Below are positions 44,619 through 59,303 of a stretch of 64,000 nt of DNA, in pieces (the first letter of the stretch is position 1; each line of letters begins with the position of its first letter). Under the pieces are notes generated by a model. The model made no database searches, was not told where the DNA came from, and saw nothing but the letters and a program-made list of their open reading frames with translations. The stretch covers positions 42,055-106,054 of the forward strand of contig JAACDF010000019.1 of assembly GCA_009937065.1 (NCBI GenBank). The letters are read 5' to 3'. The position numbers were made by a program, and so were the translations under genes. The DNA is from Gammaproteobacteria bacterium (GTDB taxonomy: Bacteria > Pseudomonadota > Gammaproteobacteria > Pseudomonadales > Halieaceae).

Positions 44619-46088
44619 GTGAAAGTGTTTTCGGCAGGTCTCGCATTATCGACCGCATTGACAGCAGCGACACTCACACTGACCGTGCCATTGGCGTCGG
44701 GACAGGACCTGATGTTGGGTGCCTACGACCCCCGTCAGCAGGAAACACTCTGGAATGACGCCATCTACCTGCAAAGTAGTGGACAGCACAGCGAAGCCAT
44801 TGAAAAGCTTAAGCGCGCCGCACACCTAAGTCGCATAAACGATGGACTCAACGCGAAAAGTCAGCTCCCTTATCTCCGCGCCGAAATCGCCAGCCATCGC
44901 GCCTTGGAGCAGCTTGCTATTGCGGATGAGCGTCAGGCATACCTCTCCCGCATTGAATCAACAACGATTCCGTCGGGTCCGGAAAAGGTAAAAGCATTGC
45001 TGGCGCAGGCCGAATGGCATCAGTACGCACTGCTGCAGGATATTGACGAAGAAGAGGAAGCGACCGCCCGCATGGGCAAGGCATGGAACTTCTATCGTCG
45101 GGCGCTCAATGAATCGATAGCTACCTATGGCGAGGATTCGGAGGAGTTAATTCCAGCGCTTGAAGGGATGGTTCGTGCGCAATATCTACTGGCAAGTCAC
45201 CGCGGAATCGGAGCCGCTATGCCAGGAAAAATGGATCGTAACGCCACCAATTATGCTGCGGGTAAGAGCGCCTTTAAACGGGGCCTTGCTGTCCTTGTTG
45301 CGATGCAGCAACTCAATCGAGACCGCTTGGGCGTTAATCGTGAAATTCAAGCTGACGACCTGATTCGTATGGGTGACTGGGCGTGGTGGACCGGTAATCG
45401 AATGAACGCCATTAGTTTTTACCAAGATGCTCTCGCCCTCGCCAATGGCGAGAGTTTGGTAACAAGTGATGAAACAAATTCAGACACCAAGGAGAAAGTA
45501 CTTGATACAGTAGTGGACGAGGTGAATGGTGCCAGTGCGGTTAACGCTCCACGATCAAGCGGCGCTTCAAAGCCCGAGGTTAAAGAGACCGATATCGCTG
45601 ATAACGCAACACCACTTGCGCCGATGACGATTGCCGATGTGCAACGGGATCCACCTGAAACGACGAGCATTCCTGATCCTGTGGTCGAGATGACTGACGT
45701 TGACGGAGAGCAACTGGAAAGTGCCGTTGCAGTAGCATCGACGGAACTCTACCCAACCTTCCGTATACTTGATGCACCCGTAGCATTACCGGCAGTACCG
45801 GGCTTTGACCCCGTACTCGATATCAAGCAGGGTGAGCCCGCTGAAGGTGACCTGGTTGTGAGTTTCAATATTAGTATGACCGGTAAGGCAGTCAATTTGG
45901 AACGCATTCAGTTCCCAGCGGTCGAAGGTACGAGAGGTCCGGAACGCGTCATCCGACGGCTGAAAGAAATGCGTTTCAGGCCGGTATTCGAGGACGGTAA
46001 TCCAGCCGAAAGTGAGAGAATCACTTGGGTATTCGAACCGAAACACTGGGCAATGCCGAGAGCAACAACGACGGAGACATCGACATGA
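44619..46088 (+). CDS. Periplasmic TPR-containing protein with C-terminal TonB-C-like domain
   Basis: Signal peptide; TPR-like N-terminal half; C-terminal EGDLVVSFNISMTGKAVNLERIQFPAVEGTRGPERVIRRLKEMRFRPVFEDGNP; GTG start with AGAGG upstream. Confidence 0.78.
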   Translation: MKVFSAGLALSTALTAATLTLTVPLASGQDLMLGAYDPRQQETLWNDAIYLQSSGQHSEAIEKLKRAAHLSRINDGLNAKSQLPYLRAEIASHRALEQLAIADERQAYLSRIESTTIPSGPEKVKALLAQAEWHQYALLQDIDEEEEATARMGKAWNFYRRALNESIATYGEDSEELIPALEGMVRAQYLLASHRGIGAAMPGKMDRNATNYAAGKSAFKRGLAVLVAMQQLNRDRLGVNREIQADDLIRMGDWAWWTGNRMNAISFYQDALALANGESLVTSDETNSDTKEKVLDTVVDEVNGASAVNAPRSSGASKPEVKETDIADNATPLAPMTIADVQRDPPETTSIPDPVVEMTDVDGEQLESAVAVASTELYPTFRILDAPVALPAVPGFDPVLDIKQGEPAEGDLVVSFNISMTGKAVNLERIQFPAVEGTRGPERVIRRLKEMRFRPVFEDGNPAESERITWVFEPKHWAMPRATTTETST

Positions 46089-47221
46089 GTGTTAACGCAA
46101 TGAAGGGGCTTATTGCGGTGGCTGCGATTTTGCCAATCTTGGCGGGCTGTCCGTCGGCCAGTATGCCAACAACACCTTCAACCCCCTCTGCATCGATGCC
46201 ACCCGGCGGCAGCTCCGGATCTAGTGGCTCATCCGGGAGCTCATCTTCGAGCGGTGGTGGCTCAGGTGGTTCATCGAGTTCGTCTGGTGGGTCATCGGGC
46301 GGTGGTTCGTCCGCCGGCGGATCATCGGGCGGTGGGGCTTCGGGTGGAGGCTCATCGAGCTCCGGCGGCTCAGCGGGAAGTGGCAGCGCCGGTGGTGGTT
46401 CCGCGGGTGGCGGTATGCCTGGCGGAAGTCAGGGCAGTGGCTCAGGTGGCATGGAAAGCGGCAGCTCTAATGGGTCGGGCGACGGCGCCATGGCAGGGGG
46501 CGATCCTGGCTTTGGTGATTCCATCGGCGGTGATCTTTCACTTCCCAGTCTTGTCGATGAAGAGCCCGTCTACAGCGCCTCGTCTGGCAGCAGTGGTAAC
46601 GGCAGCGGGTCGAGTAACAGCTCCAGTAATGGAGGTGGGACCTCATCGGGTAGTGGCTCCAGCGGCGCGAGCGATGGAAGCTCTTCCTCTGGTGCCACCG
46701 AGGGGCAAGTTGCGTCTACTGCGGGCTCAGATGCAGGCCAAGGCGGTGGCACACGAGTACAGGGTGGTTTAGAGCCCGAGTGGGGAACTACGGACACCAT
46801 GACAACCGCAGAGCGTGTTGCAGTGCTCGATAGACAACTCGAAGAAAGCACTGGCGTGTTTGACGCCATCATTCGAGAAGAGCAACGTCAGCAGCGGACA
46901 AGTCGGCGAGAGCAAGGTGCCAATAATCAAAGCTCGGGTGACTCGGGAACCGAGCAAAGTTCAGGCGGTCGAAACCCTTATGAAGCAGATGAGCAAGGCG
47001 GTTACGGTTCTGTCGGCGGTGGCATGGGTGGACGTTCGGGCGGCGCACCTGATGCACCGGCGGTCTATGAGGCTCCCGAAGACATCCCATCCGGTAACGA
47101 CGACGACATAGTTGCACGTCAGCTTCGCGAGGCCGCTATGCGGGAGCCTGATACGGATATTCGTGAGGCGTTATGGAACGAATACCGAAAGTACAAAGGT
47201 ATTGAGATACCCGAAGAATGA
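46085..47221 (+). CDS. Ser/Gly-rich low-complexity lipoprotein
   Basis: MSVNAMKGLIAVAAILPILAGC lipobox; long (SSGGSS)n tract; ATGA overlaps at both ends. Confidence 0.8.
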   Translation: MSVNAMKGLIAVAAILPILAGCPSASMPTTPSTPSASMPPGGSSGSSGSSGSSSSSGGGSGGSSSSSGGSSGGGSSAGGSSGGGASGGGSSSSGGSAGSGSAGGGSAGGGMPGGSQGSGSGGMESGSSNGSGDGAMAGGDPGFGDSIGGDLSLPSLVDEEPVYSASSGSSGNGSGSSNSSSNGGGTSSGSGSSGASDGSSSSGATEGQVASTAGSDAGQGGGTRVQGGLEPEWGTTDTMTTAERVAVLDRQLEESTGVFDAIIREEQRQQRTSRREQGANNQSSGDSGTEQSSGGRNPYEADEQGGYGSVGGGMGGRSGGAPDAPAVYEAPEDIPSGNDDDIVARQLREAAMREPDTDIREALWNEYRKYKGIEIPEE

Positions 47222-48408
47222 TTAATCGGCTTACGACACTGCTAACTCTGCTGACTGTGCTTGGCGGATGTGTAACAGAGACTGTCAAAACAACTGCGGT
47301 GCCGACGCTGAGCACCTATGAGACATCACTACCGAGTGATGAGGTGCTCGATATTGCAGTGGTCGTTTTTGATCCGGGCATTGCGGAAGTGGATCCAGAG
47401 GAAGGTATCTACCCGGAAATTAGGCGCGCCGAGGCAACCTTTATGGCGAGAGAGCTTGCTCTCGTTCTGGATGATCAAGGCGTGTGGGGGGCGAGTCGAG
47501 TGGTGCCCTCCGCCGAACACATTACTGATGTCCTGGTCACTGGAGCGATAGAGCGGTCGGATGGCGAGGCGCTAGCCCTCGTAATTAAAGCTATCGACGC
47601 TCAGGGGCGCACCTGGCTCGATAAACAGTACGCTGGAACAACCAGTCGCTATGCATATCAACAGACTCAGCGCGTTAAGAAGGATCCGTTTCTCGCCGTC
47701 TATAGGGACGTCGCAAACGACTTAATCGCCGTTTTCAAATCGTTAGCCCGTCGTGATCGACTTGCCATCAGAGATGTATCCAAGCTGAAGTTTGCTCAGA
47801 GTTTCGCGCCAGAAGCTTTTAAAGGCTACCTCAGCGAGGGTGAGGGTGCGCTCACACACCCTGTCAGGCTTCCAGCAGAGAGTGATCCGATGATGTCCCG
47901 TATCGGTGCCATTCAACAGCGCAACCACATCTTCGTTGACACGCTGCAAGGTCATTACGATAACTTTTCCGGCTCGATGGATGGTCCCTACAATGAGTGG
48001 CGACGGTTGAGCTACGAAGAGACTGTCGCGTTACGTGAGCTTGAAAACGAGGCGCAGACCCAATTAATCATGGGGGGGATTTCTCTATTAGCGGGCATCG
48101 CGGCAGCTACGTCCGATGATCGTAATGTTAGGACTGCGGGCGCTGTTGGAATGTACGCGGGTGGTGGCCTGATTAAGAGCGGATTAGAGCGCAGGGCGGA
48201 AGCCAAAATTCACTCACTCGCTCTTGAGGAGCTAGGACAGTCGTTAGAAGCGGAAATCACACCTCAGGTGATTGAGCTGGAGGACCGAACCATCGAGCTT
48301 TCAGGTACGATTGAAGATCAATACGGCCAGTGGCGTGAGATCCTTAGTGATATCTACGCTGCGGAAATTTCTGAGCTTCCAACTGATATAAGCCAGTCCT
48401 CTCAATAA
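47218..48408 (+). CDS. Lipoprotein, hypothetical
   Basis: LLTLLTVLGGC lipobox; alpha/beta N-terminal domain, C-terminal Gly-rich hydrophobic hairpin (LIMGGISLLAGIAAAT...GAVGMYAGGGLIKSG). Confidence 0.8.
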   Translation: MINRLTTLLTLLTVLGGCVTETVKTTAVPTLSTYETSLPSDEVLDIAVVVFDPGIAEVDPEEGIYPEIRRAEATFMARELALVLDDQGVWGASRVVPSAEHITDVLVTGAIERSDGEALALVIKAIDAQGRTWLDKQYAGTTSRYAYQQTQRVKKDPFLAVYRDVANDLIAVFKSLARRDRLAIRDVSKLKFAQSFAPEAFKGYLSEGEGALTHPVRLPAESDPMMSRIGAIQQRNHIFVDTLQGHYDNFSGSMDGPYNEWRRLSYEETVALRELENEAQTQLIMGGISLLAGIAAATSDDRNVRTAGAVGMYAGGGLIKSGLERRAEAKIHSLALEELGQSLEAEITPQVIELEDRTIELSGTIEDQYGQWREILSDIYAAEISELPTDISQSSQ

Positions 48409-48425: not shown

Positions 48426-49970
48426 ATGACAAACGATAGCAAAGACACGTTGCGCGCGGCGTCCTTTGAACCGAAAGCTAAGTCTCAAAGCGTCCAGGAG
48501 GTCCCGGATAACCCTCGACCAGTGGGTACGTGGATAGCACTGGCCAGTGGCGCCGTTTTGCTTGGGCTTGTCGTATTTGTCCTACCTCAATTTGCACCTA
48601 AACCCCAGATTCCGTCTTCATCAGACGCCAGCACTGCTGTGTCAGCTGCGCCAGCAGCTTCAATGTCATCAGCCGCTAGGCCGCAGGAGAGCGTTTCCGA
48701 ACGAAGCCCGTTCGCAGAAGCACAGCTCGCCAAAGTCCGACGCTCAGCTCAAGAGGTACTGCAATCATTACTGGAAACCCAGTCTCGACTCGAATCGCGG
48801 GGTGTTGATCAATGGGAAGAAGATGGTTTCACCGCGGCAAGTGCCATTGCAGTTGAGGGTGATGCGTTATACCGAGCGCAAAAATTTGATGAGGCCGAAG
48901 CCTTGTATCAACAAGCTCTTGACGCCTTGAATGCGCTGGAGGCCTCACTAAGCGACGAAATCGACAGCAGACTCGCTCTGCTGCTCGAGGCTATTGAATC
49001 AGGCGATGAAGCCACAGCCGACGCTATCGCACCCTTGCTTCAACAAATGGCACCTGACAGCGATGCCGTTTTTGACGCCGTTGAGCGTGTCCCCCTCATG
49101 CCTGAAATTGCGAATCTAGAAACGTCGGCTAAGGCGAGTTTCGAGCAAGGTGGCTTCGGCGAGGCGGTATCTCAAATCGCCGAGGCACTGCGGGTCGATC
49201 CCGTCCACCAGCGTCTGGCAGACGTCCTAAGGCAATACACGGTGGCACTGACAAATCAGCGCTTTGAAGATGCAATGACGCAGGGGTTCGCATTGCTGAG
49301 CGCTAGCGATTTCGCCAACGCTCGGACTTCGTTTCAATCTGCAAGACTAATCCTTCCCGCCGCCGATGGTCCCAGTGCTGCCCTGGCACAGCTTGAAGAG
49401 GCAGAAACCTTGTCTCGCCTGAATGCATTACTGGGTCGAGCCGCTGATTTATCTGCACAAGAGCAATGGGCAGAGGTAGTTGCTGTATTAGAAAAGGTAC
49501 TGGCCATTGATGCCAGTCTTGTTGAGGCGTCAGATGGCCTGGAAAAAGCCCGCCCATTGGCAGAGCTGTTTGCAAAACTGGATACGATCGTCGAGAAACA
49601 AGCGCGGCTGGTTGATCCCGTCGTGCTGAGTGAAGCCCAACTCTCTCTGTCAGAGGCCGAGACGGCGCTGGCGACCAACCCACAGGCATCGCCCCTGTTA
49701 GAGGAGAGAGTGATCGCTGTGCGATCGGCAGTGGCAACCGCCAGCACACCTTTGCCGGTACTTATTACTTCCGACGGCCTAACTGAGATAACCATCAAAC
49801 GCGTTGCGCGTCTCGGTGCTGTCTCATCGAGGACGGTGTCGCTTCGACCAGGCCAATATCAATTTCTGGGTAGCCGCGACGGTTACCGAGACGTGTTGGT
49901 CACTGCCAGTATCAACGCCGCATCCGATAATCGTATTGACGTCCGATGCGAGGAGACGATCATTCGCTAA
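48426..49970 (+). CDS. Inner-membrane-anchored periplasmic TPR-like protein
   Basis: Single TM (WIALASGAVLLGLVVFVLPQF), helical repeats, C-terminal TVSLRPGQYQFLGSRDGYRDVLV PEGA-like end. Confidence 0.75.
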   Translation: MTNDSKDTLRAASFEPKAKSQSVQEVPDNPRPVGTWIALASGAVLLGLVVFVLPQFAPKPQIPSSSDASTAVSAAPAASMSSAARPQESVSERSPFAEAQLAKVRRSAQEVLQSLLETQSRLESRGVDQWEEDGFTAASAIAVEGDALYRAQKFDEAEALYQQALDALNALEASLSDEIDSRLALLLEAIESGDEATADAIAPLLQQMAPDSDAVFDAVERVPLMPEIANLETSAKASFEQGGFGEAVSQIAEALRVDPVHQRLADVLRQYTVALTNQRFEDAMTQGFALLSASDFANARTSFQSARLILPAADGPSAALAQLEEAETLSRLNALLGRAADLSAQEQWAEVVAVLEKVLAIDASLVEASDGLEKARPLAELFAKLDTIVEKQARLVDPVVLSEAQLSLSEAETALATNPQASPLLEERVIAVRSAVATASTPLPVLITSDGLTEITIKRVARLGAVSSRTVSLRPGQYQFLGSRDGYRDVLVTASINAASDNRIDVRCEETIIR

Positions 49971-52051
49971 TGTCTAACGAGCGCAACCAATCCGAGTCCT
50001 TGTCACCCACGGCATTTGAACCTCGCAGTGAAAAGACAGTGGCGACAACTCGACGCCTTACACCAGCCACCGCATTGCTGGTTGTGGCGGGCTTGGTCAT
50101 CGCTTATGTACTGTTCTTCTTGCTCACGGCTCGATCGGTATCAGTCACTGTGGAGTCAGAAACGACACCTACTATCGATATCTCAGGACTGCATTTACCC
50201 TTCGGTGAGCGTTTCCTAATGAGGCCCGGCTCCTATGAGCTCAATGTCACCGCGGAGGGATATCAGACCTACACCGGGTCTTTACGCGTAGACGATGCCG
50301 AGGTGCAGACACGGGCGGTGGTGTTAACGCCTCTGCCCGGCACATTGATCATCGAGTCCATACCGCCATCAGCGACTGTGTCATTGAGCGGGACCGAGAT
50401 CGGCGTCACGCCCTTGACCATCGATGAGGTAGACGCGGGCGAGGTGACCGTGAACTTGGTGGCCGAGCGTTATCTCCCTTACGAGACCACCATTGAAGTG
50501 ATGGGCAGAGCCCAAACACAGCGGTTCTCTACCAGCCTGACTCCGGGCTGGGCTAGAGTGTCAGTCGAGACGATTCCTGCCGAGGTCTCAGTAAGCATTG
50601 ATCAGCAGAGCGTTGATCGGTCAGCGGTCACATCCAGCAAACAAGTAATCGAAGTGATGCAAGGAGCGCGCGAAATCACTTTCAGTGCGCCGGGCTATAT
50701 CGACGAGGTGGTCGAGCTAAAGGCCGTCGCTGATACCGATGTCGACCTCGGTACTATCGAACTCACACCGGCGGCGGGGATACTTCGTTTAACTTCTGTC
50801 CCCGCGGGCGCGGTTGTCACCCGCGATGGTCGCTTTGTCGGCGCCACTCCAACTGACGTAACTATGGAACCCGCGGCACGACATCGCATCGAGCTAAGAC
50901 GGGCGGGCTACTTGCCCGAATCATTTAGCCTCTCACTGGAAAAGGGTGCGAGCATCGACCGGCAAGTCGTTTTGTCACCGGCGCTGGGTGAAGTCGACAT
51001 CCAAGTCACACCCCGCAATGCCACCATTCAGGTCAATGGCGACGATCGCGGCAAGGGAAGTCAAATATTGGCCTTACCGGGTATAGAACAAGTAATTACC
51101 ATCAGAGCACCGGGGTACGCCAGCGTGGAAAAGCGCGTAACACCGCGCGCAGGGCTTAAACAACAGATCAGTGTGGCACTCCTGACAGAAGAAGAAGCCA
51201 GAAAAGCAGCCATCAAACCGGAGATAACCAGCTCGGTTGGTCAAACATTGCTCTTGATTGATCCTCAAGTGAGTCCGGTGAATGAGTTCACCATGGGCGC
51301 TCCTCGACGCGATGCCGGAAGAGGTGCCAACGAGGTCGAACGACCCGTTAGACTGACGCGTGCGTTTTACATGGCAACAACCGAGGTCACGAATGCGCAG
51401 TTTCGTCAGTTCACAGCGAATCATGAGTCGGGACAAGCCGGAGGTAAGAGCTTAAACCGCGAGCACCAACCCGCTGTACAGCTCTCTTGGCAGCAGGCGG
51501 CCAGCTTCTGTAATTGGCTAAGCGCGCGCGAGGGCCTAGCTCCCTTTTATACTGAGCGAGATGGCATCATCACCGGGTTCAACAGCACCTCAACCGGATA
51601 CCGTCTCCCAACCGAAGCTGAATGGGCGTTCGCGACCCGCGTACAGGGAGAGGGTATCTGGCGATTTGCCTGGGGCGAAGCCTGGCCACCTGAAGACGGC
51701 AGCGCCAACCTCGCCGATGCCTCCTCCGCGCTCGTCACAGGTCGCATCCTTAATGGTTACACTGACAACGTTGTCGTAAGCGCTGAGGTTGGAAAGTTTC
51801 CGCCCAACCCCAGAGGTCTATACGATATGGGTGGTAATGTCGCTGAGTGGGTCAATGACGTGTACCGGATTCCGGTACCTAATGAAGTAATTGAAGAGAA
51901 TCCGCTAGGGGATCCACAGGGCGATAACTACACTATAAGAGGTGCGAGTTGGAGCTTGAGTCGTTTGCGTGAACTCCGTCTGACCTACCGTGACTACGGT
52001 GAGCGTGGACGTGATGATGTTGGATTTAGGGTGGCAAGGTATGCAGAGTAA
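49970..52051 (+). CDS. Inner-membrane PEGA-repeat protein with C-terminal SUMF1/FGE-like domain
   Basis: TM ALLVVAGLVIAYVLFFLL; repeated PEGA-like units; FTMGAPRRDAGRGANEVERPVRLTRAFYMATTEVTNAQFRQF...GYRLPTEAEWAFATR...MGGNVAEWVND...DVGFRVAR. Confidence 0.9.
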   Translation: MSNERNQSESLSPTAFEPRSEKTVATTRRLTPATALLVVAGLVIAYVLFFLLTARSVSVTVESETTPTIDISGLHLPFGERFLMRPGSYELNVTAEGYQTYTGSLRVDDAEVQTRAVVLTPLPGTLIIESIPPSATVSLSGTEIGVTPLTIDEVDAGEVTVNLVAERYLPYETTIEVMGRAQTQRFSTSLTPGWARVSVETIPAEVSVSIDQQSVDRSAVTSSKQVIEVMQGAREITFSAPGYIDEVVELKAVADTDVDLGTIELTPAAGILRLTSVPAGAVVTRDGRFVGATPTDVTMEPAARHRIELRRAGYLPESFSLSLEKGASIDRQVVLSPALGEVDIQVTPRNATIQVNGDDRGKGSQILALPGIEQVITIRAPGYASVEKRVTPRAGLKQQISVALLTEEEARKAAIKPEITSSVGQTLLLIDPQVSPVNEFTMGAPRRDAGRGANEVERPVRLTRAFYMATTEVTNAQFRQFTANHESGQAGGKSLNREHQPAVQLSWQQAASFCNWLSAREGLAPFYTERDGIITGFNSTSTGYRLPTEAEWAFATRVQGEGIWRFAWGEAWPPEDGSANLADASSALVTGRILNGYTDNVVVSAEVGKFPPNPRGLYDMGGNVAEWVNDVYRIPVPNEVIEENPLGDPQGDNYTIRGASWSLSRLRELRLTYRDYGERGRDDVGFRVARYAE

Positions 52052-52397
52052 GTTTTGGGTCGGCGTGTTGTCGTTTGCAGGTGTCGTCCTGTTTGCCCAC
52101 GCGCAGGATGACACTTCTGCCTCGTCCAATGTTTCTAAAGATGAGGCGGTAGCGGCGGCATCCGCATCCGATTCGACAGGAGTCAACATAGTCAATGGTG
52201 GTGGTGTCGAAGCCACTGTGGAAGCACCAGACGAAGGACCTTTAAACGGTATTTTAAAAGGAGCTGATGGACCCTCTTCTGACGCACCGGGCCTACCGAT
52301 TGAAGACACCCCATCGGCCGCAACCGTGGATGACAACTACACACCCACCGAACGAATTAGCGAAGATCGATCCGTATCTTTTCCGGTTGATATCTAA
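52041..52397 (+). CDS. Small secreted low-complexity protein
   Basis: MQSKFWVGVLSFAGVVLFAHAQDDT signal peptide; 11-bp overlap with the upstream gene; ORF track starts at 51990. Confidence 0.7.
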   Translation: MQSKFWVGVLSFAGVVLFAHAQDDTSASSNVSKDEAVAAASASDSTGVNIVNGGGVEATVEAPDEGPLNGILKGADGPSSDAPGLPIEDTPSAATVDDNYTPTERISEDRSVSFPVDI

Positions 52398-52402
52398 GGT
52401 GC

Positions 52403-53212
52403 ATGCGTATGTCTAAAACGAGAATCCCGTCAGAGTTTGCGTTTCAGCTATTAGCATTGCTTGCGGCCGTAATCGTCGTGCATGCCTTTTACGTAGGCTT
52501 GATACGACCCTCTGCCGATGTGCAACTAGCAGCACAAGCGGCTCTTCAGGCGTCGGGAGAAGCTTTTGTACCCGAGCGCTCGCTGTATGTTGTGATTCGA
52601 GATTTCGAGCAGGAAGCGTGTTTCATTCTCATGATCTGGGCCCTGGCGATCATGGGCCTCAAAGCATGGACGACGCGCGAGGAAACCACGATGCTCGAAC
52701 GCAACCTGATTGAAGTTAGCGAGGGCACAACCCTACTACCCCAGGATGCGAGAAATTACGCGCGCGGTATCGAAGCACTACCCGAAAACGAGCAGGAACT
52801 ACTTTTACCGCGAACACTGCTCAATGCGCTCAGCCGTTTCTCTACAACGGCCAGTATTCCTGCCGTCTCTGAAGCCGTACGCGAGCAATGTGATATTGAG
52901 GCAGACAAGCTCGACTCTGAATTATCGATGGTTCGGTACATCAGCTGGGCAATTCCATCTATTGGATTTATTGGAACAGTTCGCGGCATCGGAGATGCGC
53001 TTGGACAAGCCTACAAGGCGGTTGAGGGTGACATTTCAGGCGTAACAGTTAGCCTCGGGGTTGCCTTCAACAGCACGTTCGTGGCGCTGGTCTTGTCCAT
53101 CATCATCATGTTTGCGTTGCACCAGCTGCAGCTTTCGCAGGAACGACTGGTCCTGAACACGCAGCGTTATGTGGACAAGAAGCTCATTCGTCATCTGGCA
53201 GCGCCTAAATGA
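52403..53212 (+). CDS. MotA/TolQ/ExbB-family proton channel protein
   Basis: YISWAIPSIGFIGTVRGIGDALGQAYKAVEGDISGVTVSLGVAFNSTFVALVLSIIIMFALHQL; at least three TM segments. Confidence 0.93.
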   Translation: MRMSKTRIPSEFAFQLLALLAAVIVVHAFYVGLIRPSADVQLAAQAALQASGEAFVPERSLYVVIRDFEQEACFILMIWALAIMGLKAWTTREETTMLERNLIEVSEGTTLLPQDARNYARGIEALPENEQELLLPRTLLNALSRFSTTASIPAVSEAVREQCDIEADKLDSELSMVRYISWAIPSIGFIGTVRGIGDALGQAYKAVEGDISGVTVSLGVAFNSTFVALVLSIIIMFALHQLQLSQERLVLNTQRYVDKKLIRHLAAPK

Positions 53213-54489
53213 GTCGTGCTTTCCTCGACCTCACCGATACTAGCCTGACGCTCAGCGACGGCCAGCGTATCTTCCGATCACCTGGCATCGCCTTTTCGCA
53301 GGCAAATGAGGTCGTATTTGGAGACGCAGCCTTTGCGCAACTCAAACGCAGACCACTGGACGTCCGAACTGACATACTTAATCAGCTTTCCACCGCGCCA
53401 CTGAGCAGTACATTTGGAAACGCGCGACACACGGCAGATTTGATCTACGAGCACCTCAAAGGTCTGCTCGCATCGATGGATCACCCGGAGGATCTCTGTC
53501 TCATCGCACCGGGAAACTTCGAACAAGCTCAGCTTGAGTTGCTATTGGGCATCCTGGACTCGCTCGGAGCGAGTCCTGCTGCGGTAGTCGACAGAGCGCT
53601 TTTGGCGCATCCCACACACTTGGGATCAGGTATTAACTTGAATCTACAGTGGCGACAATTGGTGGTAAGCAACGTCACCGTTAATGCCAATCAGTGCCGG
53701 GTAGAAAAAGTAACGGCTGTTCCCGGCATTGGCTATCTCGATTTACTTGAACTGTGCCTTGAAGAGTGCGCTGATGCCTGCATCGATCAAACACGGTTCG
53801 ATCCACGACGCAGTGCTGAGTCTGAGCAAACCCTGCTCGATGCCCTACCTGACCTCCTGGCATCGCTGGAAGGTCGCCCAGAGGTATCCGTTGAGCTTGG
53901 AACAACATCATTTAAAGTCTCGAGAAGTCGTCTTGAGAAAGCCGGACAAAAGATCGCATCAGTGATTGGAAATAAGACGGGGGTGATTAGCATCGATGAA
54001 TCGCTGTCGATGTTTCCAGGAATCAGATTTGATGCGGTTACGTCGATTGATTCTTTAACAGCGGCGGCGGCAGACCTATTGGCTGATCACCGAAGCGATG
54101 AGCCACTAACACGCATTTCCAATCGAGAAATAGCGGGAGCCGGGGCGTCCGCTGATGAGTCCACGACAACACCTGCCGCACTGGACATGACGAGCGAACC
54201 TACTACAGCCATTGAACGTCAGAAAAACGAGACACCTTTGGTGGATACACAGGGTGATCAGCCCACCCATGTTCTCATTGACGCCGTAGCACATCGTATT
54301 TCGGAAACAGACACCCAAGGCGCGGGGTTTGGTGTCGTCTACCGCGATGGTATTGCCTGCATCGACGGGTCACAGCGCGACCAAGTGAGTGTTCTGTCGG
54401 TCTCCGGTTCTCATGACCGGCTGACCGTCGGTAGTCGTTTATACCGTAACGACGGCAAGGAAGCCGTGCTCATTTTCGTCGAGTCGTAA
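53209..54489 (+). CDS. Hypothetical protein, possible actin/Hsp70-like ATPase fold
   Basis: FLDLTDTSLTLSDGQRIFRSPGIAFSQANEVVFGDAAFAQL...LCLIAPGNFEQAQLELLLGILDSLGASPAAVVDRALLA is reminiscent of actin-fold phosphate-1/connect regions; ATGA overlap with the channel gene. Confidence 0.55.
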   Translation: MSRAFLDLTDTSLTLSDGQRIFRSPGIAFSQANEVVFGDAAFAQLKRRPLDVRTDILNQLSTAPLSSTFGNARHTADLIYEHLKGLLASMDHPEDLCLIAPGNFEQAQLELLLGILDSLGASPAAVVDRALLAHPTHLGSGINLNLQWRQLVVSNVTVNANQCRVEKVTAVPGIGYLDLLELCLEECADACIDQTRFDPRRSAESEQTLLDALPDLLASLEGRPEVSVELGTTSFKVSRSRLEKAGQKIASVIGNKTGVISIDESLSMFPGIRFDAVTSIDSLTAAAADLLADHRSDEPLTRISNREIAGAGASADESTTTPAALDMTSEPTTAIERQKNETPLVDTQGDQPTHVLIDAVAHRISETDTQGAGFGVVYRDGIACIDGSQRDQVSVLSVSGSHDRLTVGSRLYRNDGKEAVLIFVES

Positions 54490-54492
54490 ACG

Positions 54493-55584
54493 ATGCCCCG
54501 GCGGAAACGACAGGCCAATACATTCAATCTCAGCTTCCTGGACATTATGTCCTGCGGCTTTGGTGCCGTTGTTCTTGTATTCCTGATCATCGATCACTCG
54601 ATTGAGATTCAAATTCAGTCGGTAAACGCAGAGGTGCTATCCGAGGTCGATCTGCTGGAGGACGACATTCGAGAAGGTGAAGAGGGTCTCGTGCGATTGC
54701 GCAATGCGATTAGTAGTACCGACCTTGAGATTGTTGAAGCGCAGGGACGCGCACGCGTCGTTACCGAGGAGCTTGATCAACTAGAGGCGCTGATCGCCTC
54801 ATTAGAAGAATCGGATGTCAGCGAGACAACGGACCTCGAGGCCCTTAAAGCAGAGATCAACTCACTAGAGGAGCGAATACAGCAATTACGTGAAGCGGCC
54901 GAAGCGGATGGTGGTCGCAGCGCACGTGAGTTTCAGGGCGAGGGAAATCGTCAGTACCTGACCGGACTCAAACTGGGCGGTAATCGAATCGCTATTATGA
55001 TCGACGCGTCGGCGAGTATGTTGGCGCCCGAGGTGGTTAACGTCATTCGACTACGAAACCAATCGAGTGATAGGCAGCGCGCGGCTCGAAAGTGGGTGCA
55101 AGCCCTAGATACGGTCGATTGGCTGACGGCTCAACTGCCAACTGGCTCGCGCTATCAGATCATTCTGTTTAATACTGAGGCCCGATTTGCCCTCCCCGAA
55201 ACGCAGGGCAGATGGCTTGAAGTCGCCAACAGCGATCAAGTCGAGCGGGTGATCTCCGCGGTTCGTGAGACATTGCCCGCAGGCGGAACCTCCCTCTACA
55301 ACGCCTTTGCCTTTCTCAATGAGCTCGACAGCAAGCCCGATAATATTTTTATTATCACCGATGGATTACCGACTCAGGGAAAAGACGCGCCTCGAAAAAA
55401 TACCGTTTCGGGTCCCGCTCGACTGAAGCACTATCGCGATGCGATCGATAACTTACCGACCAACGTGCCGGTAAATGTGGTGCTCTCGCCCATGGAGGGT
55501 GACCCCATGGCAGCGTCTGAATTCTGGAAGCTAGCGCAGAATACGGGTGGCAGTTTCATGGCACCTGCGGAGGATTGGCCGTAA
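54493..55584 (+). CDS. VWA-domain protein with N-terminal single TM (paralog 1)
   Basis: NLSFLDIMSCGFGAVVLVFLIIDHS TM; coiled coil; MIDAS IAIMIDASASM; GTSLYNAFAFLNELD...NIFIITDGLPT. Confidence 0.92.
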   Translation: MPRRKRQANTFNLSFLDIMSCGFGAVVLVFLIIDHSIEIQIQSVNAEVLSEVDLLEDDIREGEEGLVRLRNAISSTDLEIVEAQGRARVVTEELDQLEALIASLEESDVSETTDLEALKAEINSLEERIQQLREAAEADGGRSAREFQGEGNRQYLTGLKLGGNRIAIMIDASASMLAPEVVNVIRLRNQSSDRQRAARKWVQALDTVDWLTAQLPTGSRYQIILFNTEARFALPETQGRWLEVANSDQVERVISAVRETLPAGGTSLYNAFAFLNELDSKPDNIFIITDGLPTQGKDAPRKNTVSGPARLKHYRDAIDNLPTNVPVNVVLSPMEGDPMAASEFWKLAQNTGGSFMAPAEDWP

Positions 55585-56582
55585 TGCGAAAGCGTCGATC
55601 CGCACCTGAGATTTCACTGTCGTTTTTGGACGTTATTTGTTGCGGCTTCGGCGCCGTTATCTTGCTTCTGATGATCACCAAAACAGTGGAGCCCCAGGTC
55701 CTCGAAGAGTCAACGGTTATAGCGGAGGGACGCGTCGCGGAATTAACCCAGCAGCTATTTGAAATAAGGGGCGAAACGACCGTGCTCAATCGAGATCTGT
55801 CAGCAAAACGAGAACAGATATCGGAATTCGAAGAGCGAATTGCCGTTCTCCAGGGTTCGCTGGCATCTTCGAAGTCTCGTTATGACTCTCTACAAACAAC
55901 GCGGAATTCAAACAGCATTGTCGCTGAGCAACTCGCTATTGCACGCCAGGAGTTGAGCGATGAAGAAGAGCGATTACTCGGACGCGATGCTGAAAAGAAG
56001 AATCAACTGATTGGTGGCATTCCCGTCGACAGCGAGTACATCATCTTCATCATCGACACTTCGGGCTCCATGTTCTCCTATGCGTGGCAACGCATGCTGG
56101 GTGAAATGGAGGCAACGCTCAACATCTATCCCAATGTGAAGGGCATTCAGGTCATGAACGATATGGGGAACTACCTGTTTTCTCGCTACGCGGGTCAATG
56201 GATTCCCGACACCCCTGCGCGACGGCAGCTGATCTTGCGCAACCTCGCCAATTGGAACGCGTTTTCTAACTCGTCACCTGTGGAAGGTATTACACAAGCT
56301 GTCAGATCGTTTTATGACCGAGATAAGAAAATCTCCATCTACGTCTTTGGCGACGAATTTACCGGAAGATCGATCGAAGAAGTTGTGCTCACGGTGGATC
56401 GATTGAACGCCGAGGCCGGGACGGGGGAACGACGTGTGCGCATCCATGCAGTAGGCTTCCCCGTACAGTTTATAAGACCGCCCGAATTGCAGGATACGGG
56501 CATTCGTTTTGCTACACTCATGAGAGAGCTAACGCATCGGAATGGTGGGACGTTTGTTGGACTCAATGACTTTAGGCCGTAA
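55584..56582 (+). CDS. VWA-domain protein with N-terminal single TM (paralog 2)
   Basis: SLSFLDVICCGFGAVILLLMITKT TM; coiled coil; MIDAS IIFIIDTSGSM; KISIYVFGDEFTG; TAATG overlap with paralog 1. Confidence 0.92.
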   Translation: MRKRRSAPEISLSFLDVICCGFGAVILLLMITKTVEPQVLEESTVIAEGRVAELTQQLFEIRGETTVLNRDLSAKREQISEFEERIAVLQGSLASSKSRYDSLQTTRNSNSIVAEQLAIARQELSDEEERLLGRDAEKKNQLIGGIPVDSEYIIFIIDTSGSMFSYAWQRMLGEMEATLNIYPNVKGIQVMNDMGNYLFSRYAGQWIPDTPARRQLILRNLANWNAFSNSSPVEGITQAVRSFYDRDKKISIYVFGDEFTGRSIEEVVLTVDRLNAEAGTGERRVRIHAVGFPVQFIRPPELQDTGIRFATLMRELTHRNGGTFVGLNDFRP

Positions 56583-57234
56583 GGCGCAGCGTCTACTGAC
56601 GCTGATTACCCTCATCGCACTGGCGGCATGCTCGACCCGCGAAGTCGTTGTGGAAGGATCATTTCCAACACCTCTTGTCGATCCTGTACCGGTATCGGTA
56701 GGCATTTTATTCACCAAGGAATTCAAAGAGCATGAGCTAGTCGACGATGCCACCGGCCGCGGTGAGGTCAGCTGGCGCGTGAGCACAGGCACAGCACAGG
56801 TCGAGTTCTGGTCTACCCTCCTCCCCGCGTTTTTTCACAATGTGGTGTTCATCGAGAGCTACGAGGACCTGCAGACCTACGATGTCGATGCCGTCCTCAT
56901 TCCAAAAGTGGCCGACGTACAGTACGCCATCCCCCTGTACACCAACGTGAAAGTTTATGAGATCTGGATGCGCTACAACTTGGCGCTCGTAGAGCCAGAG
57001 CAAATTATCGACAAAGAAAATTCCACCATCTCACTGGAAAATATTCAGCCTTTTGCTGAGTGGCCACTGACCGCCTACGGAAAGACCCCCACCGCCTTCA
57101 TGCAATCAGATAGTGATGCAGTCAATTTGGCAGCGGTTATGGCTCTGCGCGATGCTGGTGCCAACTTTATTACCAGCTTCCTACGTGTCCCTGGCGTGAT
57201 GGATTGGATTGATAATCCCGAGGAGGCTCAATGA
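56566..57234 (+). CDS. Lipoprotein, hypothetical
   Basis: LLTLITLIALAACSTRE lipobox; start overlaps the upstream VWA gene (ORF track 56542). Confidence 0.8.
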   Translation: MTLGRKAQRLLTLITLIALAACSTREVVVEGSFPTPLVDPVPVSVGILFTKEFKEHELVDDATGRGEVSWRVSTGTAQVEFWSTLLPAFFHNVVFIESYEDLQTYDVDAVLIPKVADVQYAIPLYTNVKVYEIWMRYNLALVEPEQIIDKENSTISLENIQPFAEWPLTAYGKTPTAFMQSDSDAVNLAAVMALRDAGANFITSFLRVPGVMDWIDNPEEAQ

Positions 57235-57890
57235 AGCGCGCACTGCTCTCTGTTTTTTTACTGGGCGGCTTACTCGGCGGCTGCGTAACCGCCAATGTCG
57301 ATGAAATGACCTTTGATGCGCCGGTCGCGGGTATGACCGATGGCAGTATTGTTATTCTGGGTAGACGCCACGCGCCCGATTACGATACCGAGCCCGACTT
57401 TATAGATTGTATTGGCAGTCATATAAGCCGTGGCAGCGAAAATATTAACGTCATTCCAGAGGGACAGTTTGTCGATGCCATGTACCCCTGGTTCGAGCCG
57501 CGGACTGCGCCATTAAGCATCGAAAGCGTTGGTCGACTAATGGTGCTCCCCAGCGTTGCGGGCAAGCTGTCGGAGTTGGATCTCGATTACATGATCTGGA
57601 TTGATGGCCGAACTCAGGATACCAATAGCAGTGGCTCCATGACCTGTGGCGTCGGACCTACCGGCGCCGGATGCTTTGGTTTCGGGACCTGGGGTACCGA
57701 GTCCGAGTACGAAGCCACCATATGGAACTTTGATGCCGGTGCCGAGGTCGGAAAGATGAGTGCCTTAACCAGTGGACAAAGCTACATGCCTGCCGTTGTT
57801 GTTCCTATTCCCATCATTGCGCCAGTTCAGGATACTGCCTGTGACAGCTTGGGAACCCAGCTGTTGCAGTACCTGTCTGCCGGGTCGTAA
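57231..57890 (+). CDS. Lipoprotein, hypothetical
   Basis: ALLSVFLLGGLLGGCVT lipobox; ATGA overlap. Confidence 0.8.
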   Translation: MKRALLSVFLLGGLLGGCVTANVDEMTFDAPVAGMTDGSIVILGRRHAPDYDTEPDFIDCIGSHISRGSENINVIPEGQFVDAMYPWFEPRTAPLSIESVGRLMVLPSVAGKLSELDLDYMIWIDGRTQDTNSSGSMTCGVGPTGAGCFGFGTWGTESEYEATIWNFDAGAEVGKMSALTSGQSYMPAVVVPIPIIAPVQDTACDSLGTQLLQYLSAGS

Positions 57891-57893
57891 GCC

Positions 57894-59303
57894 GTGAAAC
57901 GAATTATTGCCTCGCTTTGCCTGGCCGCATTCATCGTAGGCTGTGCGGGATCATCGACCGTTACCGTGGGTGGGCGTCCGGTGAACATTCCAACCGATGC
58001 CGCTGAAGAGCACGAGAAGCTCATTGAGAACATCGGTATCTATGACGATCCGGAGTTACAGGCCTACATTGACGAAATCGGTGCGCGATTAGTTGCCAAC
58101 TCCAGCATGCCCAATCAGGACTTCACTTTTACGTTGCTGGACTCCCCTGACATCAATGCGTTCGCCCTGCCCGGCGGTCTCATCTACATCAATCGAGGTC
58201 TGCTCGCCTACCTCGATAGTGAGGCGGAGCTTGCTGGGGTGATTGCACACGAGATCGGGCATATCACCGAGCGGCACCACTCTCGTCGCAGGACACAGAC
58301 GATTACCAATCAGGTGGCGGCCGTATCGGCGTTGATCCTAACCGGATCGGGTGATCTATATGACGCAACAAGCATGTACGGCGCAGAGCTCATCTCAGGC
58401 TTTGGTCGCGATATGGAACTCGAAGCTGATGCGGCCGGCGCTGAATTCATGCATAAAAGCGGATACGACGCCGATGCCTTGTTGTCGGTAATCGGTGTCC
58501 TCAAAGACCAGGAGCGTTACCGGAAAGCCGTTGCCAAGGCCTCTGGCAAGCCCTCCGGTACATACCATGGGCTATACGCCAGTCACCCGAGAAACGACCT
58601 GCGGCTACAAACCGTCATCAAGACGGCCAACAGTTTAGATCTCGACATGATGCCCGAGAACCCAGAGTTGCCGGGGCGGTTCAGGCGTGAAACCGAGGGT
58701 ATGGTGATCGGCGCGAGTGCCGAGGCGCAAAGTGACCCTCTGCGTTACTACCACAACAAACTGGACTTCACGTTTGAGCACCCCGAAGGCTGGCTTGTCA
58801 CTGCAACCACGCGGGAAATTGTCGCTCAGGCCCCCGACTCCGATGCAGCGCTCAAAATCAAAATAGCGAAAGTCGATCCTGATAAAAGCCCCAATGACGC
58901 CCTCCCTGAACTTGCCTCTGGTGAGATCAGTGGGCAAGAGTCCATTGAGAATGAAGGTCTCAAGGGTGCGACGGCACTCGCAAGCACTGCCGGCGTTCAA
59001 AAGCGTTTGGGTATTATTGATCATCGATTCCGATTCTTGTTCGAGGGCGAGGCCAGTGACTTCAGCACCGCCGACGAGGGATTCAAAACCATTATCGCTT
59101 CTTTCAGGCCGCTATTCGCCAGAGAGAAAAAGCGCGGTGAAAGCCACGTATTGAACTACGTTCAAGTACCGAGAGGTGCTACTTTCGGATCGATGAGCTC
59201 GGGCGTTCGAGTGCCTGATGCAGAAAACCAATTGCGCTTGATTAATGGCTACTACCCCAGTGGCGAGCCGCGTACTGGTGATTGGTTAAAAGTCCTTCGA
59301 TAA
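57894..59303 (+). CDS. M48-family metalloprotease lipoprotein (BepA/LoiP-like N-terminal catalytic domain)
   Basis: LAAFIVGCAGS lipobox; VIAHEIGHITERHH HExxH; DMELEADAAGAEFM; GTG start. Confidence 0.93.
   Translation: MKRIIASLCLAAFIVGCAGSSTVTVGGRPVNIPTDAAEEHEKLIENIGIYDDPELQAYIDEIGARLVANSSMPNQDFTFTLLDSPDINAFALPGGLIYINRGLLAYLDSEAELAGVIAHEIGHITERHHSRRRTQTITNQVAAVSALILTGSGDLYDATSMYGAELISGFGRDMELEADAAGAEFMHKSGYDADALLSVIGVLKDQERYRKAVAKASGKPSGTYHGLYASHPRNDLRLQTVIKTANSLDLDMMPENPELPGRFRRETEGMVIGASAEAQSDPLRYYHNKLDFTFEHPEGWLVTATTREIVAQAPDSDAALKIKIAKVDPDKSPNDALPELASGEISGQESIENEGLKGATALASTAGVQKRLGIIDHRFRFLFEGEASDFSTADEGFKTIIASFRPLFAREKKRGESHVLNYVQVPRGATFGSMSSGVRVPDAENQLRLINGYYPSGEPRTGDWLKVLR

Follow-up and report, generated by a model that had tools for sequence, protein, structure and literature searches.

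Two neighbouring genes in a 64,000-nucleotide stretch (the window) of a Halieaceae genome (GCA_009937065.1, contig JAACDF010000019.1) encode paralogous VWA-domain proteins, VWA1 and VWA2 (Table 1), and raise the question of whether the near-identical N-terminal membrane helix that they share is a stator helix of the ExbD/MotB type, as an original prediction made from the DNA letters had proposed. On re-reading the window sequence, the motif was found exactly where it had been placed, the VWA1 core SFLDIMSCGFGAV occupying 54532-54570 and the VWA2 core SFLDVICCGFGAV 55620-55658, with the aspartate codon (GAC in both) at 54541-54543 (+) for Asp17 of VWA1 and at 55629-55631 (+) for Asp16 of VWA2. 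The two open reading frames overlap by one base, the last A of the stop codon TAA being the first base of the next ATG. Their N-termini are clearly homologous (profile-profile comparison, 99.8%, E 1e-26), and identity amounts to 13 of 21 residues in the membrane block as against 73 of 278 elsewhere, which bears out the view that the coiled coils and VWA domains have diverged further than the helix. The aspartate had been described as lying before or at the start of the single membrane helix; it does belong to that helix, but about five residues inside the hydrophobic segment, which spans about -5 to +16 relative to the acid. This position near the cytoplasmic end, with a basic N-terminus ahead, is that of the acid in MotB and ExbD.

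Table 1 Genes of the VWA locus in the window (forward-strand positions, counted from the first nucleotide of the stretch).
Feature	Position	Strand	Basis and remarks
Ser/Gly-rich lipoprotein, first gene of the conserved operon	46082..47221	+	Lipobox LAGC; probable start within the 46025 ORF
Lipoprotein (LGGC), no Pfam family	47218..48408	+	Syntenic homologs, E 1e-58 to 1e-139
Single-TM TPR protein	48426..49970	+	TPR_2, E 1.6e-6; conserved
Single-TM protein with PEGA repeats and SUMF1/FGE-like domain (GldK/GldJ-type fold family)	49946..52051	+	PEGA, E 8.5e-40; FGE-sulfatase, E 2.2e-38; conserved
Small secreted protein, no family	51990..52397	+	Weak same-place homologs in some loci; true start possibly downstream of 51990
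MotA/TolQ/ExbB-family channel subunit (A subunit)	52403..53212	+	PF01618, E 8.2e-14, above cut-off
Degenerate Hsp70/actin-like protein ending in an FHA domain; predicted to be cytoplasmic	53209..54489	+	Hsp70 chains, E 8.6e-5; FHA chains by profile
VWA1	54493..55584	+	Basic N-terminus followed by TM with Asp17, a long helical shaft and a MIDAS-bearing VWA domain; VWA_2, E 1.9e-7
VWA2	55584..56582	+	Layout as VWA1, Asp16 in TM; Pfam VWA_2 only marginal
Lipoprotein (LAAC), downstream, subset of lineages	56542..57234	+	ORF, synteny
Lipoprotein (LGGC), downstream, subset of lineages	57231..57890	+	ORF, synteny
Lipoprotein M48 metalloprotease (BepA-like), downstream, subset of lineages	57894..59303	+	Peptidase_M48, E 1.3e-34

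Beyond the helix, a monomer model of VWA1 is helical over residues 10-106, with low confidence at the N-terminus, and its structural matches in the PDB are VWA domains. The MIDAS of VWA1 is intact (DASAS, Thr266 and Asp290) and that of VWA2 comprises DTSGS and Asp257, all of these elements being conserved. Neither protein has a Pfam match to ExbD/TolR (PF02472) or to the MotB plug (PF13677), and profile-profile comparison of the VWA helix with ExbD and MotB gave no signal, as was also the case for the positive control, the accepted homologs ExbD and MotB, so that this comparison had no power to discriminate.

When SFLDxxxCGFGA was written as a degenerate DNA pattern, it hit 25 of 369 gammaproteobacterial genomes, whereas its reversed form hit none, and the motif is therefore not a product of chance. 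At least 119 pattern-bearing stretches came out of a scan of named genomes, with Verrucomicrobia represented alongside Gamma-, Alpha- and Deltaproteobacteria. Of the 152 frames with the pattern, 150 have a C-terminus of VWA1 or VWA2 type, and the remaining two are truncated where the stretch stops. The pair recurs across all of these groups, and both paralogs are present at 103 of 118 loci, the remainder comprising two split loci and others that mostly reach the end of the stretch. A search for plasmid or E. coli copies found none.

The aspartate is invariant in VWA1 (45/45) and in VWA2 (39/39), and when VWA copies were recovered by their C-terminal domain alone, rather than by the pattern, it was present in every readable N-terminus (62 distinct sequence windows). 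A distant clade (L274-L285) offers a natural test of which motif residues matter: Phe-Leu-Asp is retained while Cys and Gly are partly lost (SSAFAA, ASGLGA), with CGFGA replaced by SAFAA in some VWA2 proteins and by CGLGA or SGLGA in VWA1. Since the aspartate persists where CGFGA decays, it is the constrained residue, more so than the Cys and Gly that the original prediction had stressed and that prove dispensable to the segment in this one clade.

The motif almost never occurs away from a MotA/ExbB-family gene, the condition on which the proposal of a stator helix had been made to depend. For loci chosen by the DNA pattern alone, an HMM built up from the MotA-like protein of the window found a MotA/TolQ/ExbB-like gene within about 3 kb of the motif genes at 78 of 80 assessable loci; outside these 80 stood 37 loci with too little upstream sequence and two with the motif deep in a long frame. 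The two exceptions (L031 and L043) have enough room yet no channel gene beside the motif, and their genomes each carry one copy of the channel gene at another site, with the Hsp70-like gene and VWA1 after it; VWA2 alone has been relocated. At L186 and L187, which represent one family, the channel gene has changed place: instead of preceding the Hsp70-like gene it follows VWA2, and it is still adjacent. The reverse search ran the channel alignment against 299 genomes from the phylum and recovered a distant family, with VWA1 following the channel gene at 12 of 12 loci with room and VWA2 at 11 of 11 where it is visible; the aspartate is present in every one of these proteins (12/12 VWA1, 11/11 VWA2).

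The AlphaFold2 model of the channel subunit has a mean pLDDT of 95, and its best Foldseek matches are TolQ and ExbB chains; all 50 of the 50 matches listed are of TolQ, ExbB, PomA or MotA type, with TM-scores mostly of 0.4-0.6. Its Thr192 and Thr225 are invariant, and each matches a threonine at the equivalent position of TolQ; in this family these threonines line the pore. Where TolQ and ExbB have their pore glutamate, five residues before the second threonine, members of this channel family have Val, a loss that would suit a scaffold built on a non-conducting channel, controlled by the Hsp70-FHA protein and by metal binding at the MIDAS, in which the aspartate would serve helix packing or insertion. 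However, both pore threonines and the aspartate are strictly kept while the neighbouring Cys and Gly vary, and we consider such a purely structural role improbable.

The near-identical helix with its invariant acid and the channel gene beside it therefore make VWA1 and VWA2 the probable axle of a proton-driven envelope motor. In this motor, of the ion-driven MotAB/ExbBD/TolQR type, they would be the B subunits of the channel protein, their N-terminal helices entering the pore of its pentamer, where Asp17 or Asp16 would face the ring of invariant threonines and act as the proton-binding residue. Rotation of the axle would then be transmitted via the helical shaft to two periplasmic VWA domains, which would stand in for the customary output of peptidoglycan, TonB or TolA type. 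Against this reading stand the missing profile signal with ExbD and MotB, the loss of the pore glutamate, the low-confidence N-terminus of the VWA1 model and the two genomes with VWA2 apart from VWA1. A stator helix came through the tests applied here, and we regard the proposal as partly supported.

The same proteins might instead be force transducers bound to the side of the motor, like TolA or TonB, with the helix outside the pentamer and a classical ExbD or TolR from elsewhere occupying the pore. The source genome does carry several ExbD genes, on other contigs, and another vWA family of exactly that sort is described in PMC12204202; that family, however, has adjoining tolR-like genes and an SHLS-His helix, whereas local profiles run over the window and more than 160 related stretches detected neither an ExbD-family nor a MotB-plug gene, and the VWA helix has an invariant acid. 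We therefore think it very unlikely that the helices lie outside the pore. Five weak MotB-profile matches near some loci were rejected as plugs, being secreted OmpA-type periplasmic proteins that match in the OmpA domain only.

For helices within the pore, the most likely axle would be a VWA1/VWA2 heterodimer, because the paralogs are kept together across phyla, their joint retention being the one line of evidence on this point. An arrangement in which VWA1-VWA1 and VWA2-VWA2 homodimers form two separate motors with a common channel protein, a possibility also for AglRQ and AglRS, seems to us somewhat doubtful: AglR with its two MotB-like partners is a precedent, its dimer make-up being unsettled (PMC9389320), but both VWA paralogs occur at nearly every locus with room and their genes overlap in the window, which favours the heterodimer without proving it.

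A motor helix of this kind has already been published as a prediction. In PMC12204202 (Mol Biol Evol, June 2025), vWA proteins that occur in pairs next to tolQ are described as having a TolR-like helix with an aspartate, and AlphaFold3 complexes of such relatives place the helix inside the pentamer. As presented there, the TPH-vWA proteins and their TolQ-like pentamers (Fig. 4c,d of that paper) have in common with the proteins studied here the TM-anchored heterologous vWA pairs beside a tolQ homolog, the absence of tolR/exbD, the helix aspartate, the channel threonine ring and an occurrence in Proteobacteria and Verrucomicrobia. Each feature compared is found in the window, namely vWA genes beside a tolQ/MotA homolog, no syntenic tolR/exbD/motB, a heterologous pair, and the aspartate with the threonine ring. 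The idea of a stator helix in these proteins was therefore right in substance, though not new, and the window is a member of the TPH-vWA kind as that text defines it, assigned by these features rather than by sequence relation to the Idiomarina founder. The AlphaFold3-based conclusion drawn there is independent of, and the same as, our assignment of the VWA helices to the axle. Neither Hsp70 nor PEGA occurs in the main text of PMC12204202, which does not discuss the operon partners, and our addition is the conserved operon with its lipoproteins, TPR protein, PEGA-SUMF1 protein and degenerate Hsp70-FHA protein.

Several other systems invite comparison. TolQR and ExbBD share with the VWA system the channel fold, both pore threonines and a single-TM B subunit with an aspartate near the cytoplasmic end, whereas the VWA system lacks an ExbD-like periplasmic domain and the pore glutamate and has a pair of paralogous B subunits that carry a shaft and a VWA domain. 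Like the window, the AglRQS system of Myxococcus gliding combines one MotA-like gene with two paralogous B-subunit genes (MotB-like in AglRQS); AglQ and AglS are described as MotB/TolR/ExbD homologs, in contrast to VWA1 and VWA2 with their shaft and VWA domain. Common to the window and to GldLM with GldK in type IX secretion are a 5:2 motor (here proposed), an extended shaft in the periplasm and a partner of SUMF1 type, although the SUMF1 protein here is PEGA-linked, has an inner-membrane anchor and does not come near the GldK cut-off. This protein does score on GldK/GldJ models (GldK, E 1.5e-27, far below cut-off) and resembles the ring lipoproteins of type IX secretion. Pfam, NCBIfam and PADLOC placed the VWA pair in no named system; Zorya anti-phage defence was rejected, the window having only a marginal ZorA match (E 0.0085) and no other component.

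Across 20 longer gammaproteobacterial loci, some of them cut by contig ends, and the deltaproteobacterial loci L300 and L301, the usual gene order is lipoprotein, lipoprotein, TPR, PEGA-SUMF1, channel, (Hsp70-FHA), VWA1, VWA2. Homologs of the first lipoprotein occupy the same position in most of the gammaproteobacterial loci examined and in L300/L301, and L187 has no match for the second. The Hsp70-FHA gene is absent from L181-L183, L189, L190 and L194, and a subset of loci has two more lipoproteins and an M48 protease after VWA2. In the three verrucomicrobial loci that were followed at length (L297-L299) the core is kept, with the Hsp70-like gene in two of them, and the upstream genes were not found within search reach. 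Secreted OmpA-type proteins with a glycine-zipper-like segment, possibly a peptidoglycan anchor, are encoded downstream of VWA2 at L078, L117, L193, L139 and L044. As read from the window sequence, the operon's other single-TM proteins (TPR and PEGA-SUMF1) have a membrane segment without an acidic residue.

FHA domains bind phosphothreonine, and in some members of the Hsp70-FHA family this domain is recognised at E 3.3e-13. In one relative (L193, 4645-7108) the TPR protein is fused to a Ser/Thr kinase-like domain, and this fusion, together with the Hsp70-FHA protein, hints at a possible phospho-control of the motor. With PEGA-SUMF1 and TPR proteins at the inner membrane and lipoproteins at the outer membrane, the parts list suggests a regulated trans-envelope machine. 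Whether this amounts to a distinct envelope system, rather than a form of Ton, Tol or T9SS, we judge to be evenly balanced; in such a system the motor core would belong to a conserved machine that spans the envelope under phospho-regulation, with a heterodimeric VWA axle, a cytoplasmic Hsp70-FHA protein, inner-membrane PEGA-SUMF1 and TPR proteins, and outer-membrane lipoproteins joined in some lineages by the M48 protease.

To our knowledge no phenotype has been reported for this family of VWA motors, which has a wide distribution in marine Proteobacteria and also occurs in Verrucomicrobia, and the operon supplies a parts list toward one. If our assignment of VWA1 and VWA2 is true, 5:2 proton motors would include some with an integrin-like VWA output arm, unlike the peptidoglycan or TonB/TolA arms, and an axle made from two genes would open direct tests of asymmetry in such motors.
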